Assembly (NCBI RefSeq): GCF_003074135.1
Contig: NZ_PPDK01000001.1
Span: 1,178,001-1,242,000, forward strand
DNA length: 64,000 bases
Reading direction: 5' to 3'
DNA from: Euzebya tangerina
GTDB taxonomy: Bacteria > Actinomycetota > Nitriliruptoria > Euzebyales > Euzebyaceae
The position numbers and the translations under genes were made by a program. This document shows, one piece after another, positions 27,116 to 35,300 of this stretch (its first letter is position 1; each line of letters starts with the position of its first letter). The notes under the pieces were generated by a model that saw nothing but the letters and a program-made list of their open reading frames with translations, ran no database searches and was not told the origin of the DNA.

Positions 27116-28000
27116 CTACCCCGGCGGCGGGCCCGACCGGAGCAGCGCTCGCTCCGCGGTGCGGAGCCCGGCGTCCAGTTGGGCGCCGACATCGAGGCCA
27201 CCGGTCCGCGCCGCGAGGAATCCGGCGGTGAATGCGTCCCCTGCCCCGACGGGGTCCCCGCCCGGAACCGCTGGTGCTGACCGGCTGAGGATCTCGTTGC
27301 CGTCCGACCAGACCACGCCGTCAGCGCCGCAGGTCACCACCGCCTCGCCGCAGCGCGCTGCCAGTGCCGTCGCAACCTCCTCGGCGGTGTCAGCCGAGGT
27401 CAGCAGCCGGCCCTCGTCCAGGTTCGGGGTGAGCAGGACCGGACGGCCGACCCACTCCAGGAAGGCCTCGGCACCGACCTCGGCCAGCGGCGCGGTGGAG
27501 GCGGGGTCGACGCTGATCGGCACGCCCGCCGCACGAGCGGCCCCGATGGCGGCCAGTCCCGCGGACCGGCTTCCAGGGTGGAGCAGGGTGTAGCCGCTGA
27601 GGTGGACGTGGGTGGCCTGGGATCCGATGGCGTCGGTCAGGTCAGCCGGAGCCAACAGCCCGGAGGCGCCCCGGCTGGTGTACATGTCCCGGTCGTGGTG
27701 CTCCCCGGCGGAGGTGACGACCGCCACGACGGACCCCGTGGCCAGGCCGGGCTTGACGGCGAACGCGCAGGTCACGCCCAGCGTGGTCAGCTCGCCCCGG
27801 ATGGCTGTGCCCGGTCCGTCGTCCCCGACTGCTGCCACCAAGGTGACGGGGATGCCCAGCCGAGCCAGCCACGCCGCCGTGGAGGCTGCCGATCCGCCTT
27901 GCCGGGTGATGATGGTGGCGGGAGTGTCGCTGCCGCGAGCCGTCGGCCCGTCCGGCGTCACGACCACGTCCAGCAGGACGTCGCCGACCACGACGATCAT
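27116..28000 (-). CDS. psuK: PfkB-family kinase, probable pseudouridine kinase
   Basis: 294 residues from ATG 28000, where MIVVVGDVLLDVVV starts the usual PfkB strand; the longer frame upstream is Arg-rich and not protein-like. GGSAASTAAWLARLG is the substrate-side motif and GGDPVGAGDAFTAGFLA the ATP/anion-hole motif with catalytic Asp. Its immediate neighbour is psuG, so pseudouridine to pseudouridine 5'-phosphate is the likely reaction. Sequence alone would allow ribokinase. Confidence 0.82.
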   Translation of the reverse strand: MIVVVGDVLLDVVVTPDGPTARGSDTPATIITRQGGSAASTAAWLARLGIPVTLVAAVGDDGPGTAIRGELTTLGVTCAFAVKPGLATGSVVAVVTSAGEHHDRDMYTSRGASGLLAPADLTDAIGSQATHVHLSGYTLLHPGSRSAGLAAIGAARAAGVPISVDPASTAPLAEVGAEAFLEWVGRPVLLTPNLDEGRLLTSADTAEEVATALAARCGEAVVTCGADGVVWSDGNEILSRSAPAVPGGDPVGAGDAFTAGFLAARTGGLDVGAQLDAGLRTAERALLRSGPPPG

Positions 28001-28061
28001 CCGGCGGTGCAGCCTCGCCGGACCGTGCCAGCAGCGCTCGCCTGGCCCGCCACGCCCGGGC

Positions 28062-28991
28062 TCACGAGGAGGCGACCTGGACGGCGACCTCCGCTGCCAG
28101 GGCCGCGTTGCCCTCGACCACACGGATGTTGACCCGAAGGCTCTCGCCGCCGGTCGAGGTGTGGAAGTGGTCCAACAGGAAGGGCGTGACGTCCTTGCCC
28201 GTGATGCGACGACTGGTGAGCAGTGCCAGGCCGGAGTGCAGCACGCGGTCGTGCAGGGTCGGGTCCAGCTGGTCCTTCGCCGCGATCGGGTTGGCCAGCA
28301 CGATGGCGCGGTCTCCCAGGCCGAGGTGTCCCATGGCGGTGTGGACCTCGGCCACCTGCTCGGTGGACGAGACGGTCCAGTCGATGGGCTGGCCCGAGCT
28401 GCGCAGGTAGAAGCCCGGGAACTGGCTGGTCTGGTACCCGAGGACGGGAACGCCGTGGCTCTCCAGCCGCTCCAGCGTGGCGCTCACATCCAGGATCGAC
28501 TTGACGCCCGCGCAGACCACGATCATCGGGGTCCGGGCCAGCGCGGCGAGGTCGGCGGACTCGTCCCACGAGTCACGGGCCTCGCGATGGACGCCGCCGA
28601 GTCCGCCGGTCGCGAAGACCTTGATCCCGGCGACGGCGGCAAGGTGTGAGGTCGAGGCCACCGTGGTCGCGCCAGTCCTCCGAGTGGCCATGGCCGGGCC
28701 CAGGTCCCGTATTGACAGCTTCGCGACGTCGTCCTCCTGGGCGATGCGGGCCAGGCTGCTGCCGTCCAGGCCGATGTGCGGCTTGCCGTCGATGACGGCG
28801 ATCGTGGCGGGTACCGCCCCGGTGTTGCGGACGATCTTCTCCAACTGTTCGGCCACGTCCAGGTTCTGTCCGCGTGGCAGGCCGTGGGCGATCAGGGTGG
28901 ACTCAAGGGCAACCACACCGACGCCGTCGTGGAGGGCCTGCTGGACCTCGTCGTGAACGATGACGGCACCGCTTGACAGTGGATCGCTCAT
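28062..28991 (-). CDS. psuG: Pseudouridine-5'-phosphate glycosidase
   Basis: 309 residues. Recognised by ALESTLIAHGLPRGQN near the start, PATIAVIDGKPHIGL, ATGGLGGVHREA and LANPIAAKDQLD, all conserved in PsuG. It splits pseudouridine 5'-phosphate into uracil and ribose 5-phosphate using a catalytic Lys and a metal. The start overlaps the SDR stop by 4 bp and psuK follows 61 nt later, giving a three-gene transcription unit for nucleoside salvage. Confidence 0.95.
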   Translation of the reverse strand: MSDPLSSGAVIVHDEVQQALHDGVGVVALESTLIAHGLPRGQNLDVAEQLEKIVRNTGAVPATIAVIDGKPHIGLDGSSLARIAQEDDVAKLSIRDLGPAMATRRTGATTVASTSHLAAVAGIKVFATGGLGGVHREARDSWDESADLAALARTPMIVVCAGVKSILDVSATLERLESHGVPVLGYQTSQFPGFYLRSSGQPIDWTVSSTEQVAEVHTAMGHLGLGDRAIVLANPIAAKDQLDPTLHDRVLHSGLALLTSRRITGKDVTPFLLDHFHTSTGGESLRVNIRVVEGNAALAAEVAVQVASS

Positions 28992-29761
28992 GCGAGCTTT
29001 CCGAACCCACGGACGAGGGCCCGGGTGGCGCTGCGAGGGAGGCTCTGGGTGACGGCGGTTGCGGCCTTCCAGGTGCGTCCCGGGACCACGACGGCCTTGT
29101 TCTCGGCGACCCCGCGAAGGCTCTCGGCCACGACGGTCTCGGGGCTCAGCAGCAGTCGATCCGGAACCGCCGAGGTGCCCTCGGCGTCGCGCACCATCGG
29201 CGTGTCCACGAAGCCCGGGCAGACGGCCGTGACGTGGACGCCGGCGTTGATGTTCTCCAGCCGGACGGCCTCGGACCAGGTCGTCTCGTAGGCCTTGCAG
29301 GCGGCGTAGGTGGCCATGCCGGGCAGTGGCTGGAACCCGGCGATGGAGGAGACGTTGAGGATCCCACCACCCGCTCCGCTCGCGCGCATGGCCCGAAGGG
29401 CTGCGTGGGTGAGGGTCATCATCGCGGTGATGTGAATGCCGACCTGGCTCAGCTCGGCGTCCAGATCTGCTTTGTGATAGGGCCGGTCGCCGCCGAAGCC
29501 GGCGTTGTTGATCAGCAGGTCCACCGGTGGTGCCGCCCTCAATCGGTCGGCGACCTTCTGCAGGGCCGTCGGGTCCAGCAGGTCGGCGGTGATCACCTCG
29601 ACGTCCACATCGAGCTCGTCCCGCAGTGCCGTCAACTTGTCGGTCGACCGCGCGACGACCACCAGGTCGACCCCGTCAGCAGCCAGGGTCCGGGCATAGG
29701 TGTCGCCCAGTCCAGACGAGGCTCCGGTCACCAGGGCACGGGTGAAGGCGCGTGTGCTCAT
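28988..29761 (-). CDS. Short-chain dehydrogenase/reductase
   Basis: 257 residues from ATG 29761. Classical SDR: TGASSGLG cofactor loop, NNAG motif (LINNAGFGGD), catalytic Ser in ILNVSSIAG, Tyr-x3-Lys in TYAACKAYETT, and PGFVDTPM. TGASSGLGDTYAR and the ARSTDKL cofactor-end loop suggest NADP(H). First gene of the SDR-psuG-psuK unit, although a role in pseudouridine breakdown is not obvious. Confidence 0.92.
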   Translation of the reverse strand: MSTRAFTRALVTGASSGLGDTYARTLAADGVDLVVVARSTDKLTALRDELDVDVEVITADLLDPTALQKVADRLRAAPPVDLLINNAGFGGDRPYHKADLDAELSQVGIHITAMMTLTHAALRAMRASGAGGGILNVSSIAGFQPLPGMATYAACKAYETTWSEAVRLENINAGVHVTAVCPGFVDTPMVRDAEGTSAVPDRLLLSPETVVAESLRGVAENKAVVVPGRTWKAATAVTQSLPRSATRALVRGFGKLA

Positions 29762-29799
29762 GCGCCCGATGATAGGTCGTGAATTGCAGTCTAGGATTC

Positions 29800-29900
29800 G
29801 TCGCACGCCGGGGGAGCCATCGGCTGAGAGTGCACCGCCACGAAGGCGGCAGCAGACCCCACGAACCTGAACCGGTTAATGCCGGCGGAGGGAGTGCGAC
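29800..29900 (+). promoter_or_regulatory. TPP riboswitch (THI element)
   Basis: Conserved blocks are clear: CTGAGAGTG at 29824, then GAACCTGAACCGG and TTAATGCCGGCGGAGGGA before the gene. P1 is a perfect 7-bp helix, GTCGCAC (29800-29806) with GTGCGAC (29894-29900), and its 3' strand ends at the base before the start codon. The GGAGGGAG ribosome site (29887-29894) is therefore inside the aptamer edge, so thiamine pyrophosphate binding should block translation start directly. A TAGGAT element at 29792 could be a promoter -10. Confidence 0.96.
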
Positions 29901-31316
29901 ATGCTGGAACCACTGCTCGGAACGGTCCTGCTCGGGGCGGCCTTGCTGGTCTTCGTCGGATTGGGGCTCTCGGCTGGCCGGGACGACGACGTCGAGAGCT
30001 ACATCTCCGCTCGTGGGACACAAGGCCCGCTGTCGATCGGCCTCTCCTTCCTGGCGGCGGGTCTGGGCGCGTGGATCCTCTTCGCGCCGCCGGAGGTGGG
30101 TGCCGGTGTCGGCCTCCTGGGTGTCCTCGGCTACGCGGTCGGAGCGGGGCTGCCGGTCCTGCTGTTCGGCCTGCTCGGACGTCGGATCCGCCGGGCGGTG
30201 CCTGAAGGACACTCCATCGGCGAGTTCGCACGACTGCGGTACGGCCGCGGGTTCGCCGCACTGGTCTTCCTCATCAGCGTCGGCTACATGTTCTTCTTCG
30301 TCACTGCGGAGCTGACATCGGTCGCCGGTGTGACTGGCATCGTGGCCGGCGTCGACGCCCGCCTCACGGTGCTGGCCGTGGCAGGGGCGACGCTGGTGTA
30401 CACGACGTGGGGCGGGCTGCGGGCGTCGCTGGTGACCGACCGCTGGCAGGCCGGGCTGATCGTGGCCCTGGTCGCAGTCGGGTTCGTGGCCGCGTTCGGA
30501 GCGGTGGACGGTGGCGGGCAGGCGATCGGCGAGAGTGGTCTGCTCGGGGTGAGCCGCGTGGGGTGGGAGGTGGCGCTGACTCTGGTGATCGCCGTCGCCT
30601 CCGCCAACATGTTCCACCAGGGGTACTGGCAGCGGGTGTGGGCGGCGTCGGATGAGGGGGTGCTCCGGCGAGGTGCCGGGATCGGCGTGGCGCTGACCGT
30701 GCCGGTGGTGGTGGTGCTCGGCCTGTTCGGGATCCTGGCCGCGGGGAGCGGTCAGGGCCTCGATGTGTCTCCGGTGCCGTTCTTCGCGCTGACGACCGAG
30801 CTGTCGACCGGGATCGGAGCCGTGGTGCTGGTGCTCGGTGTGTCGTTGGTGGCCTCGTCGGTGGACACCTTGGAGACGGGGCTCTTCTCGCTCATCGCCG
30901 CCGAGGTGCCGGGGATGACGATGGGGACGGCGCGGCTCGTGACCGTGGCGGTCATGGTCCCCGCGGTGGTCGTGGCCTTCCAGGGCCTGAGCGTCCTGCG
31001 GCTGTTCCTGATCGCCGACCTGCTCTGTGCTGGAGTGGTGGTCCCGTTGCTGGCCGGGTTGTGGTCCCGGGTCAGCTCGGCGGCGGCGATGTCGGGGGCG
31101 CTGGCCGGCCTTGCGGGTGCGGTGGTCCCCGGGTTGATCTCGACGGGATCGCTGGTCGAGGCGCTCCGGCTGGCCTCGTTCCCGGGGGCCACGCCGACGT
31201 TGCCGCCGTTCCTCGGGGCATTGGGGCTGTCAGCGCTTGTCACGTTCGCGGTGTCGCTGGCCGGGGGCGACAGGCGGGACGGGGCCACCGTCGAACTGAA
31301 GACGACGGACGCCTAG
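29901..31316 (+). CDS. Sodium:solute symporter, predicted thiamine or precursor transporter
   Basis: 471 residues, about 13 transmembrane helices in the SSS arrangement; ATG 29901 follows the riboswitch ribosome site. The core helices contain TLVYTTWGGLRASLVTDRWQ and ANMFHQGYWQRVWAA, both SSS hallmarks. The TPP riboswitch ties it to thiamine supply, and SSS proteins under THI elements (called ThiV in comparative genomics) are predicted thiamine or thiamine-precursor importers. Substrate inferred from regulation, not sequence. Confidence 0.9.
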   Translation: MLEPLLGTVLLGAALLVFVGLGLSAGRDDDVESYISARGTQGPLSIGLSFLAAGLGAWILFAPPEVGAGVGLLGVLGYAVGAGLPVLLFGLLGRRIRRAVPEGHSIGEFARLRYGRGFAALVFLISVGYMFFFVTAELTSVAGVTGIVAGVDARLTVLAVAGATLVYTTWGGLRASLVTDRWQAGLIVALVAVGFVAAFGAVDGGGQAIGESGLLGVSRVGWEVALTLVIAVASANMFHQGYWQRVWAASDEGVLRRGAGIGVALTVPVVVVLGLFGILAAGSGQGLDVSPVPFFALTTELSTGIGAVVLVLGVSLVASSVDTLETGLFSLIAAEVPGMTMGTARLVTVAVMVPAVVVAFQGLSVLRLFLIADLLCAGVVVPLLAGLWSRVSSAAAMSGALAGLAGAVVPGLISTGSLVEALRLASFPGATPTLPPFLGALGLSALVTFAVSLAGGDRRDGATVELKTTDA

Positions 31317-34214: not shown

Positions 34215-35300
34215 ATGACCAGCATCGCAGACCAGCATTCCGGCGTCACCATCGGGGTGGACACCCACAAGGACGCACACGTCGCGGCCGTGCTCGACCA
34301 CGCGGGGCGAGTCGTGGACACCCGCCAGTTCAGCGCTGACCGGCACGGCCACTGCGCCCTGCACGACTGGGCCATCAGGCACGGGGAGGTCGTGGCCGTC
34401 GGCATAGAGGGCACCGGCTCCTACGGCGCGGGACTGCACCGACACCTCGCTGGCGTCGGCCTGCCGTGCATCGAGGTCAACCACACGAACCGGCAGCACC
34501 GCCGCCGCCACGGCAAGTCAGACACCGCCGACGCGATCGGCGCGGCCCGCGCCGTGCAGTCCGGCCAGGCCGACGGGCGACCGCGGGGCAACGATGGGCT
34601 CGTCGAGGCCCTGCGGACCATCCGTGTCGCGCTGCGATCAGCGATCCGGTCCCGCTCTCAGGCGATCAACCAGCTTCGCGCACTGGTCGTGACCGCCCCC
34701 GAACCGCTCGCACAGCGGTTTCGTCACCTCACACGAGACGAGCTCGTCAGCCGCGCATCCGGCCTGCGGCCGAGCGCCGACAGCTCCGCGACCACCGCAA
34801 CCAAACACGCGATGCGCAGCCTCGCCCGGCGGATCCGCGTCCTCGACGTGGAGATCGAGGACCTGCGAGCCGAACGCGACCGCTATGTCTGGCTGGTGGC
34901 ACCCATCCAGCTCATGGACGAGCACGGGGTGGGCCCCGACGTGGCCTCCGACCTGCTGATCGCATTCGGTGACAACCCCGACCGCATCCGCTCGGAGTCC
35001 TCATTCGCCGCGCTCTGCGGCGTCTCACCCGTCGACGCCTCAAGCGGCAAGTCGCAGCGGCACCGCCTCAACCGCGGTGGTGACCGCCAGGCGAACAAGG
35101 CGCTGTACCGCATCGTCACCTGCCGCATGGCAAGCGACGAGAGAACCCAGCGCCACGTCGCGCAGACCATCGCCCGCGGCAAGACCAAACGAGAAGCAAT
35201 ACGAATTCTCAAGCGCTACGTCGCACGGCACATCTGGAGACTCCTGCAGCAGCACCCGCCCAGGCTTGACAACCCATAGGAGCATCTCGGGGCGTTCAGG
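34020..35300 (+). mobile_element. IS110-family insertion sequence (ends approximate)
   Basis: Defined by the transposase and its long 5' noncoding region. IS110 elements lack terminal inverted repeats and usually make no target duplication, so ends cannot be fixed from one copy. ATAGGAGC occurs on both sides of the gene (34130 and 35277), which may mark related end sequences. Inserted just downstream of tRNA-Ser(CGA). Confidence 0.6.
34215..35279 (+). CDS. IS110-family transposase
   Basis: 354 residues, full length for the family. The RuvC-like DEDD catalytic domain has Asp in IGVDTHKD, Glu in VGIEGTGSYG, and two Asp in GKSDTADAIGA; the C-terminal Tnp_20 domain carries the reactive Ser region ASSGKSQRHRLNRGGDRQAN. 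Nothing is truncated or frameshifted, so it may be active. Ribosome site GAGAGAGGG is 8-16 nt upstream of ATG. Confidence 0.96.
   Translation: MTSIADQHSGVTIGVDTHKDAHVAAVLDHAGRVVDTRQFSADRHGHCALHDWAIRHGEVVAVGIEGTGSYGAGLHRHLAGVGLPCIEVNHTNRQHRRRHGKSDTADAIGAARAVQSGQADGRPRGNDGLVEALRTIRVALRSAIRSRSQAINQLRALVVTAPEPLAQRFRHLTRDELVSRASGLRPSADSSATTATKHAMRSLARRIRVLDVEIEDLRAERDRYVWLVAPIQLMDEHGVGPDVASDLLIAFGDNPDRIRSESSFAALCGVSPVDASSGKSQRHRLNRGGDRQANKALYRIVTCRMASDERTQRHVAQTIARGKTKREAIRILKRYVARHIWRLLQQHPPRLDNP

Follow-up and report, generated by a model that had tools for sequence, protein, structure and literature searches.

A TPP riboswitch that probably controls translation of a ThiV/SSSP-type importer directly in Euzebya tangerina

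Introduction

In the 64,000-nucleotide stretch of the Euzebya tangerina genome analysed here (hereafter the window), a candidate TPP aptamer runs up to the start codon of a transporter gene, which raises the question of how such an element could act on its gene and what the transporter carries. The answer we consider likely is that a TPP riboswitch directly controls translation of a ThiV/SSSP-type importer, with HMP as its most likely substrate. The features on which the argument draws are as follows, all on the forward strand.

29792-29797, +: TAGGAT, predicted promoter -10 element, from comparison of TANNNT motifs; predicted transcription start at about 29803-29805
29800-29806, +: GTCGCAC, P1 5' strand of the sequence-only reading, pairing with 29894-29900; 29800-29802 are possibly upstream of the transcript (sequence)
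29806-29808, +: CGC, P1 5' strand in the register that the family conserves, pairing with GCG 29896-29898; only 3 bp in this genome
29811-29814, +: P2 5' strand, pairing with 29857-29860 (alignment counts, fold)
29816-29818, +: P3 5' strand, pairing with 29822-29824 (pair counts, sequence)
29824-29829, +: conserved CTGAGA, directly after P3 (sequence)
29831-29854, +: variable extra stem-loop, TGC/GCA and CCGCC/GGCGG (sequence, fold)
29866-29868, +: CCT, P4 5' strand, partner of the Shine-Dalgarno bases AGG 29889-29891; the pairing holds in all 41 aptamers
29872-29885, +: P5 hairpin, CCGG/CCGG; paired in 41 of 41 aligned aptamers
29887-29891, +: GGAGG, Shine-Dalgarno, 9 nt before ATG, made up of core bases (3' strand of P4 and the joiner next to it) (sequence, core conservation in alignment A2)
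29894-29900, +: GTGCGAC, P1 3' strand, spacer from Shine-Dalgarno to ATG (sequence, core-to-start distance)
29901-31316, +: 471-aa sodium:solute symporter of the SSS family, ThiV/SSSP-like and predicted to import HMP (PF00474, PDB profiles, predicted fold)

An aptamer that ends at a start codon

The element is almost certainly a TPP aptamer, with ligand binding predicted from its sequence and conservation. A permissive cmscan matched RF00059 at 29800-29911 (+) with 52.3 bits and an E-value of 1.8e-9, which confirms the aptamer of the TPP riboswitch proposed by an earlier, sequence-only reading of the locus; that span belongs to the model, and the aptamer proper stops at 29900. An Rfam scan at the curated gathering threshold misses the element by two bits (52.3 vs 54.3); as this cut-off is a curation threshold and no defining trait, we base membership on the E-value, the core motifs and conservation. 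The CUGAGA, GAACCUGA and AGGGA core and the P1-P5 architecture are all present, as judged from the sequence, the model alignment and pair counts over 41 sequences, and the association of the aptamer with thiamine-related genes is kept across relatives in our genus, class and order comparisons. Over the whole structure, 93.3% of cells in the 41 aptamers are paired and 41 cells have both sides changed, exceeding all slid controls; folding energy (z -0.53 relative to shuffles) is by itself no evidence for an element. The 41 aptamers of alignment A2 were taken from 73 distinct ones, those from gammaproteobacteria being deliberately thinned; A2 and A4 take 20 of the 23 symporter holders found in the class, leaving out L164 (no P2 anchor), L173 (missed by the script) and G019 (degenerate), and L073 is also omitted.

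The helix that carries the aptamer to its gene calls for some correction. GTCGCAC is complementary to GTGCGAC, and the latter ends one base before the ATG at 29901, just as first read; this 7-bp register is, however, peculiar to this genome, with 40.8% of cells paired in the 41 relatives, a figure equalled by shuffles, and we rejected it as a conserved feature. The P1 that relatives keep is shorter and differs in register (alignment columns 7-11 with 130-134); there, 85.9% of cells across the 41 aptamers are paired, more than in any slid control, and one column is compensatory, U-A being swapped for A-U or G-C in 14 cells. Since the family register amounts to only 3 bp here, the 7-bp helix may replace it in this genome, though it may be transcribed only in part, its first three bases possibly lying outside the RNA.

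The same reading had placed the ribosome site in the 3' side of P1, and this is the wrong helix. GGAGGGAG, at 29887-29894, shares one base with the P1 3' strand, and GGAGG sits in P4 and its joiner, where A29889, G29890 and G29891 pair with CCU 29866-29868. The coordinates, together with a P4 pairing that all 41 relatives keep, rule out a site within P1 and place it in the aptamer's conserved 3' core; in 35 of the 41 aligned relatives, exactly 7 nt separate that core from the start codon.

At its other end, too, the element appears to leave little to spare. TANNNT stands just 5' of P1 in 20 of 20 symporter aptamers from Actinomycetota (2.2 expected from shuffles), exactly 6 nt from P1 in 11 of them, and at most 30 nt upstream of P2 in 38 of 44 TPP matches in the order (4.6 expected; 45 matches, one lacking an anchor). 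With the usual spacing between -10 element and start, TAGGAT suggests that transcription begins near 29803-29805, in which case 29800-29802 would be outside the RNA and the leader would probably comprise nothing beyond the aptamer. A sigma-70 two-box scan of 29650-30000 returned no promoters, so the -10 element stays a prediction drawn from the one-box comparison; beside the gammaproteobacterial aptamers a conserved -10 was not found (21 of 53, 16.2 expected).

The symporter and its predicted substrate

The gene behind the aptamer scores 22.4 bits against PF00474, just below the cut-off of 22.8, and 48.8 against NCBIfam TIGR00813 (threshold 184). Thresholds of this sort being a matter of curation, we base membership of the SSS family on profile and fold evidence: there are matches to solved SSS proteins (DUR3, E 2.4e-12; SGLT1, 6.3e-8), and the predicted structure (pLDDT 86.6) matches the fold of CHT1, SiaT, DUR3 and SGLT, the best alignment being with CHT1 (Z 45.2, 440 residues, rmsd 2.6), with SiaT 5nva at Z 37.5 (435 residues, rmsd 2.8). 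On these grounds the sodium symporter of the sequence-only reading stands. None of the 30 aligned relatives departs from Tyr78, Glu137 and Phe238-His239, residues that resemble, and may correspond to, the HMP/thiamin symporter signature described in the relevant part of PMC11452348 (Tyr at SiaT position 78, an acidic residue at 139, and Phe at 254 followed by His or a polar residue). We would place the gene, as far as sequence features can tell, with the ThiV/SSSP symporters.

What such a protein might import is suggested by the genes around which it would have to work. The genome carries an operon thiO-thiS-thiG-orf-thiE (L181:5768-9095; C1, about 3218767-3222094), with ThiG at 351 bits and ThiD at 326 bits, and searches of the same genome for ThiC and for TPK gave no match to either. 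Apparently, then, the cell makes thiazole phosphate and joins the two halves of the vitamin but cannot make HMP. Because one half would be made and the halves joined while ThiC is lacking, we predict import of HMP, which is our best single guess for the main substrate and a fairly probable one, with thiamine as its rival.

Comparison of genomes lends this prediction some weight. Among 30 genomes of the order, ThiG exceeds 300 bits in all 14 symporter holders vs 7 of 16 non-holders (p 0.0009, uncorrected for kinship), and across the class TPK is found in 4 of 23 holders vs 27 of 43 others (p 0.0006, likewise uncorrected); both associations weaken within families (p 0.09 and 0.48 in f2, 0.16 in f5). 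ThiC is missing from 63 of the 66 class genomes, holder or not (Fisher p 0.55), so that its absence alone does not point to the symporter in a class that mostly does without it, and symporter and ThiC occur together in 30 of the 35 genomes searched behind named loci, chiefly of gammaproteobacteria. For both reasons we set aside HMP specificity as a conclusion from the absence of ThiC alone.

The alternative that best survives keeps the same riboswitch and has the transporter import thiamine or a breakdown product (for example aminopyrimidines) in place of HMP. It draws on several lines: among the SSS relatives are the Dur31 thiamin transporters of fungi, which TPP riboswitches control, in the account of PMC5997356; McRose et al., in the passage concerned, left thiamine or HMP open and cite an HMP/AmMP proposal (PMC4260697); TPK is, after all, present in 4 of the 23 class holders; and most gammaproteobacterial holders possess ThiC, so the transporter would there serve salvage. 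Against it, our own genome and all 14 holders of the order are without a TPK match and keep ThiG, so that a TPK to pyrophosphorylate imported thiamine would be lacking and the thiazole branch would be superfluous. We consider thiamine import unlikely, if a serious contender, and continue to favour HMP.

A whole-genome search (genome rated 98.3% complete; 150 of 238 first-look candidates scored) gave one TPP match only, that before the symporter, and no TPP aptamer match was found upstream of the genome's own thiO operon; in this genus, the importer alone keeps a TPP switch. In ten related genomes of the order, thiO is preceded by a TPP aptamer.

Mode of control

We propose a direct translational OFF switch, and hold this to be very likely, with TPP binding and OFF logic predicted from the arrangement of the sequence. 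When TPP is plentiful, the aptamer would be bound and P4 and P1 would close, so that the GGAGG of the core and the spacer to the AUG would be held in structure and translation would stop; when TPP is scarce, a 30S subunit would be able to bind. The start codon stands no more than 15 nt from the end of the aptamer (7 nt from the core), the ribosome site lies within the core, and 29650-30000 contains no terminator-like sites; a switch without an expression platform, as first proposed, is a prediction well supported by anatomy and conservation. In energy folding without ligand, P4 is already largely formed and, whichever start is tried, about 40% of the Shine-Dalgarno is unpaired, so that such folding does not show switching.

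Translational riboswitches can also alter mRNA levels, as noted in the portion of PMC11487190 that treats them, and one could imagine that transcription or mRNA stability is the main target of this switch (for instance by Rho-dependent termination once translation stops), with the block on translation being secondary. The region is without an intrinsic terminator, and the gap from aptamer to start codon leaves no room for a platform; we regard such a scheme as improbable and retain direct control of translation.

Distribution, decay and possible transfer

Each of the four genomes of the genus yields just one TPP match, and it stands directly before the symporter gene. Across the class, the symporter orthologue is found in 23 of 66 genomes (25 matches at threshold, two weak ones of 83-90 bits being set aside), and an aptamer abuts the gene in 22 of these 23; in the remaining one, G019, it is degenerate (L062 1141-1231; R1: 22.6 bits, E 0.0028), with CCGAGA for CUGAGA and a shortened 3' core, and the symporter gene behind it is intact. 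Within the order, 37 of 45 TPP matches have a start codon at most 15 nt from the core, making the direct design the rule there. The sequence-only reading had further held a symporter to be a rarer target than thi genes; in the order no other assigned target is as common (14 of 41, one truncated copy included; no target could be given to 4 of the 45 matches, and the start codons chosen in G003, G011 and G016 are doubtful).

Variants were seen along the way. One genome, G006, carries another such TPP aptamer (L017 874-983) before a truncated, 189-aa copy of the symporter, with the full-length pair also present. In G015 (L058; C15:327033-327144) the aptamer abuts the start of an unusual target, presumably a zinc-type alcohol dehydrogenase-like gene. 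G004 (L006; C1:931324-931427), from the same family as the window genome, has its start codon about 51 nt past the core, and its spacer can fold a GTGTGC/GCACAC hairpin over the ribosome site, i.e. a classical platform. Elsewhere in the window there is an ORF at 34215-35279, which we take to resemble an IS110-type transposase, and, on the minus strand at 27116-28991, a PfkB kinase beside an Indigoidine_A (PsuG-type) protein, a pair that we assume is likely to serve pseudouridine catabolism.

Beyond the class, 80 named relatives were kept from 301, mostly Halomonadaceae and Marinobacteraceae, and the fusion of riboswitch and start codon recurs in Halomonas and Marinobacter. An aptamer lies upstream in 62 of the 80; the 18 without a recognised one are the G019 contig and 17 Marinobacter loci (L074, L076, L080, L081, L092-L095, L103, L112, L136, L140, L145, L147, L149, L150 and L152). 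In several of the latter a short GGCGGAG remains immediately ahead of the start; it may be what is left of the aptamer core, now used as an ordinary ribosome site. Such decay within the family, together with a score slightly under the gathering threshold, might be taken to mean that the window element is itself a non-functional remnant beside a constitutive transporter, a reading we judge very improbable given that P2 (4 bp), P3, P4, P5, CUGAGA and the core are all intact and that congeners of identical anatomy score 46-52.2 bits.

Most of the gammaproteobacterial aptamers share the GCGGAGGAAGNGCGAC-ATG ending, and 13 of the 21 Pseudomonadota rows in the alignment have a P1 that takes in base one of the start codon. 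Between the two phyla, symporter aptamers share a mean identity of 0.731, vs 0.658 to other TPP aptamers of the same order, and 14 of 20 aptamers have their nearest neighbour from outside in the other phylum, that group being the larger (53 vs 31). This suggests that aptamer and gene may have been transferred jointly between phyla. A quick tree groups the 72 Pseudomonadota rows in a single clade (SH-aLRT 100) next to actinobacterial rows, the outgroup being very distant and long branches flagged; it comprises 20 of the 23 class proteins (the split G010 and G013 and the partial G052 left out), 73 of the 80 named loci (seven duplicate G genomes left out) and two outgroup rows. As no host-specific platform is needed, a closed unit of promoter, aptamer, ribosome site and start codon, transcribed from the start of P1 and translated from its end, would be able to travel as a ready-made regulated cassette, and we offer tentatively the idea that it moved with the transporter gene between Actinomycetota and Pseudomonadota.

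Comparison with known systems

The mechanism itself is already known, and both the switch design and its pairing with this kind of gene are in print. Direct translation attenuation is a published TPP design, and in the sections of Barrick and Breaker 2007 (PMC2258182) that bear on it, it has the traits seen here: a start codon at most 15 nt from the aptamer end, a purine-rich 3' core as ribosome site, no further platform, and occurrence in Actinomycetota. Nothing essential differs, the extra 7-bp P1 register being specific to this genome. Leaders that begin at the aptamer, as we predict for the window, are likewise on record in Corynebacterium glutamicum, where Table 2 of PMC3890552 has five TPP leaders whose starts, measured by RNA-seq, range from 9 nt upstream of the Rfam aptamer start to 5 nt within the aptamer; the targets in that table differ, being cg0825, cg1227, thiC, thiM and thiE, with no SSS symporter among them.

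ThiV/SSSP symporters under TPP riboswitches are described, in the parts of each source that concern them, from metagenomes (PMC2211319), from SAR11 (PMC11452348, PMC2704228), and from Methylobacillus, Marinobacter and algae (McRose et al., PMC4260697). The window system shares with these, as far as the same parts describe them, the SSS family and a TPP riboswitch upstream of the gene, and with SAR11 a gene set that is without HMP synthesis and retains the thiazole branch; it differs in belonging to an actinobacterial clade, the comparison with SAR11 ThiV being one by description, and the window protein shares about 50-54% identity with its Marinobacter relatives. Literature searches on this locus (Euzebya with thiamin; Marinobacter symporter riboswitch) found nothing beyond McRose et al. 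The fungal thiamin transporter Dur31/NCU01977 also joins an SSF domain to a TPP riboswitch, and differs, in the passages of PMC5997356 devoted to it, in being eukaryotic and controlled by splicing.

What is new here is a sole TPP match in the genome, the contrast between ThiC and TPK, which were not found, and a retained thiO-thiS-thiG-thiE set with ThiD, and the same fusion of riboswitch and start codon in Halomonas and Marinobacter. The pairing of ThiV/SSSP with a TPP switch is thereby extended to the Nitriliruptoria (Actinomycetota), where 63 of 66 genomes show no ThiC, with the prediction that the host depends on environmental HMP; and the locus provides a concrete case for asking whether platform-free riboswitches cross phyla as intact cassettes.
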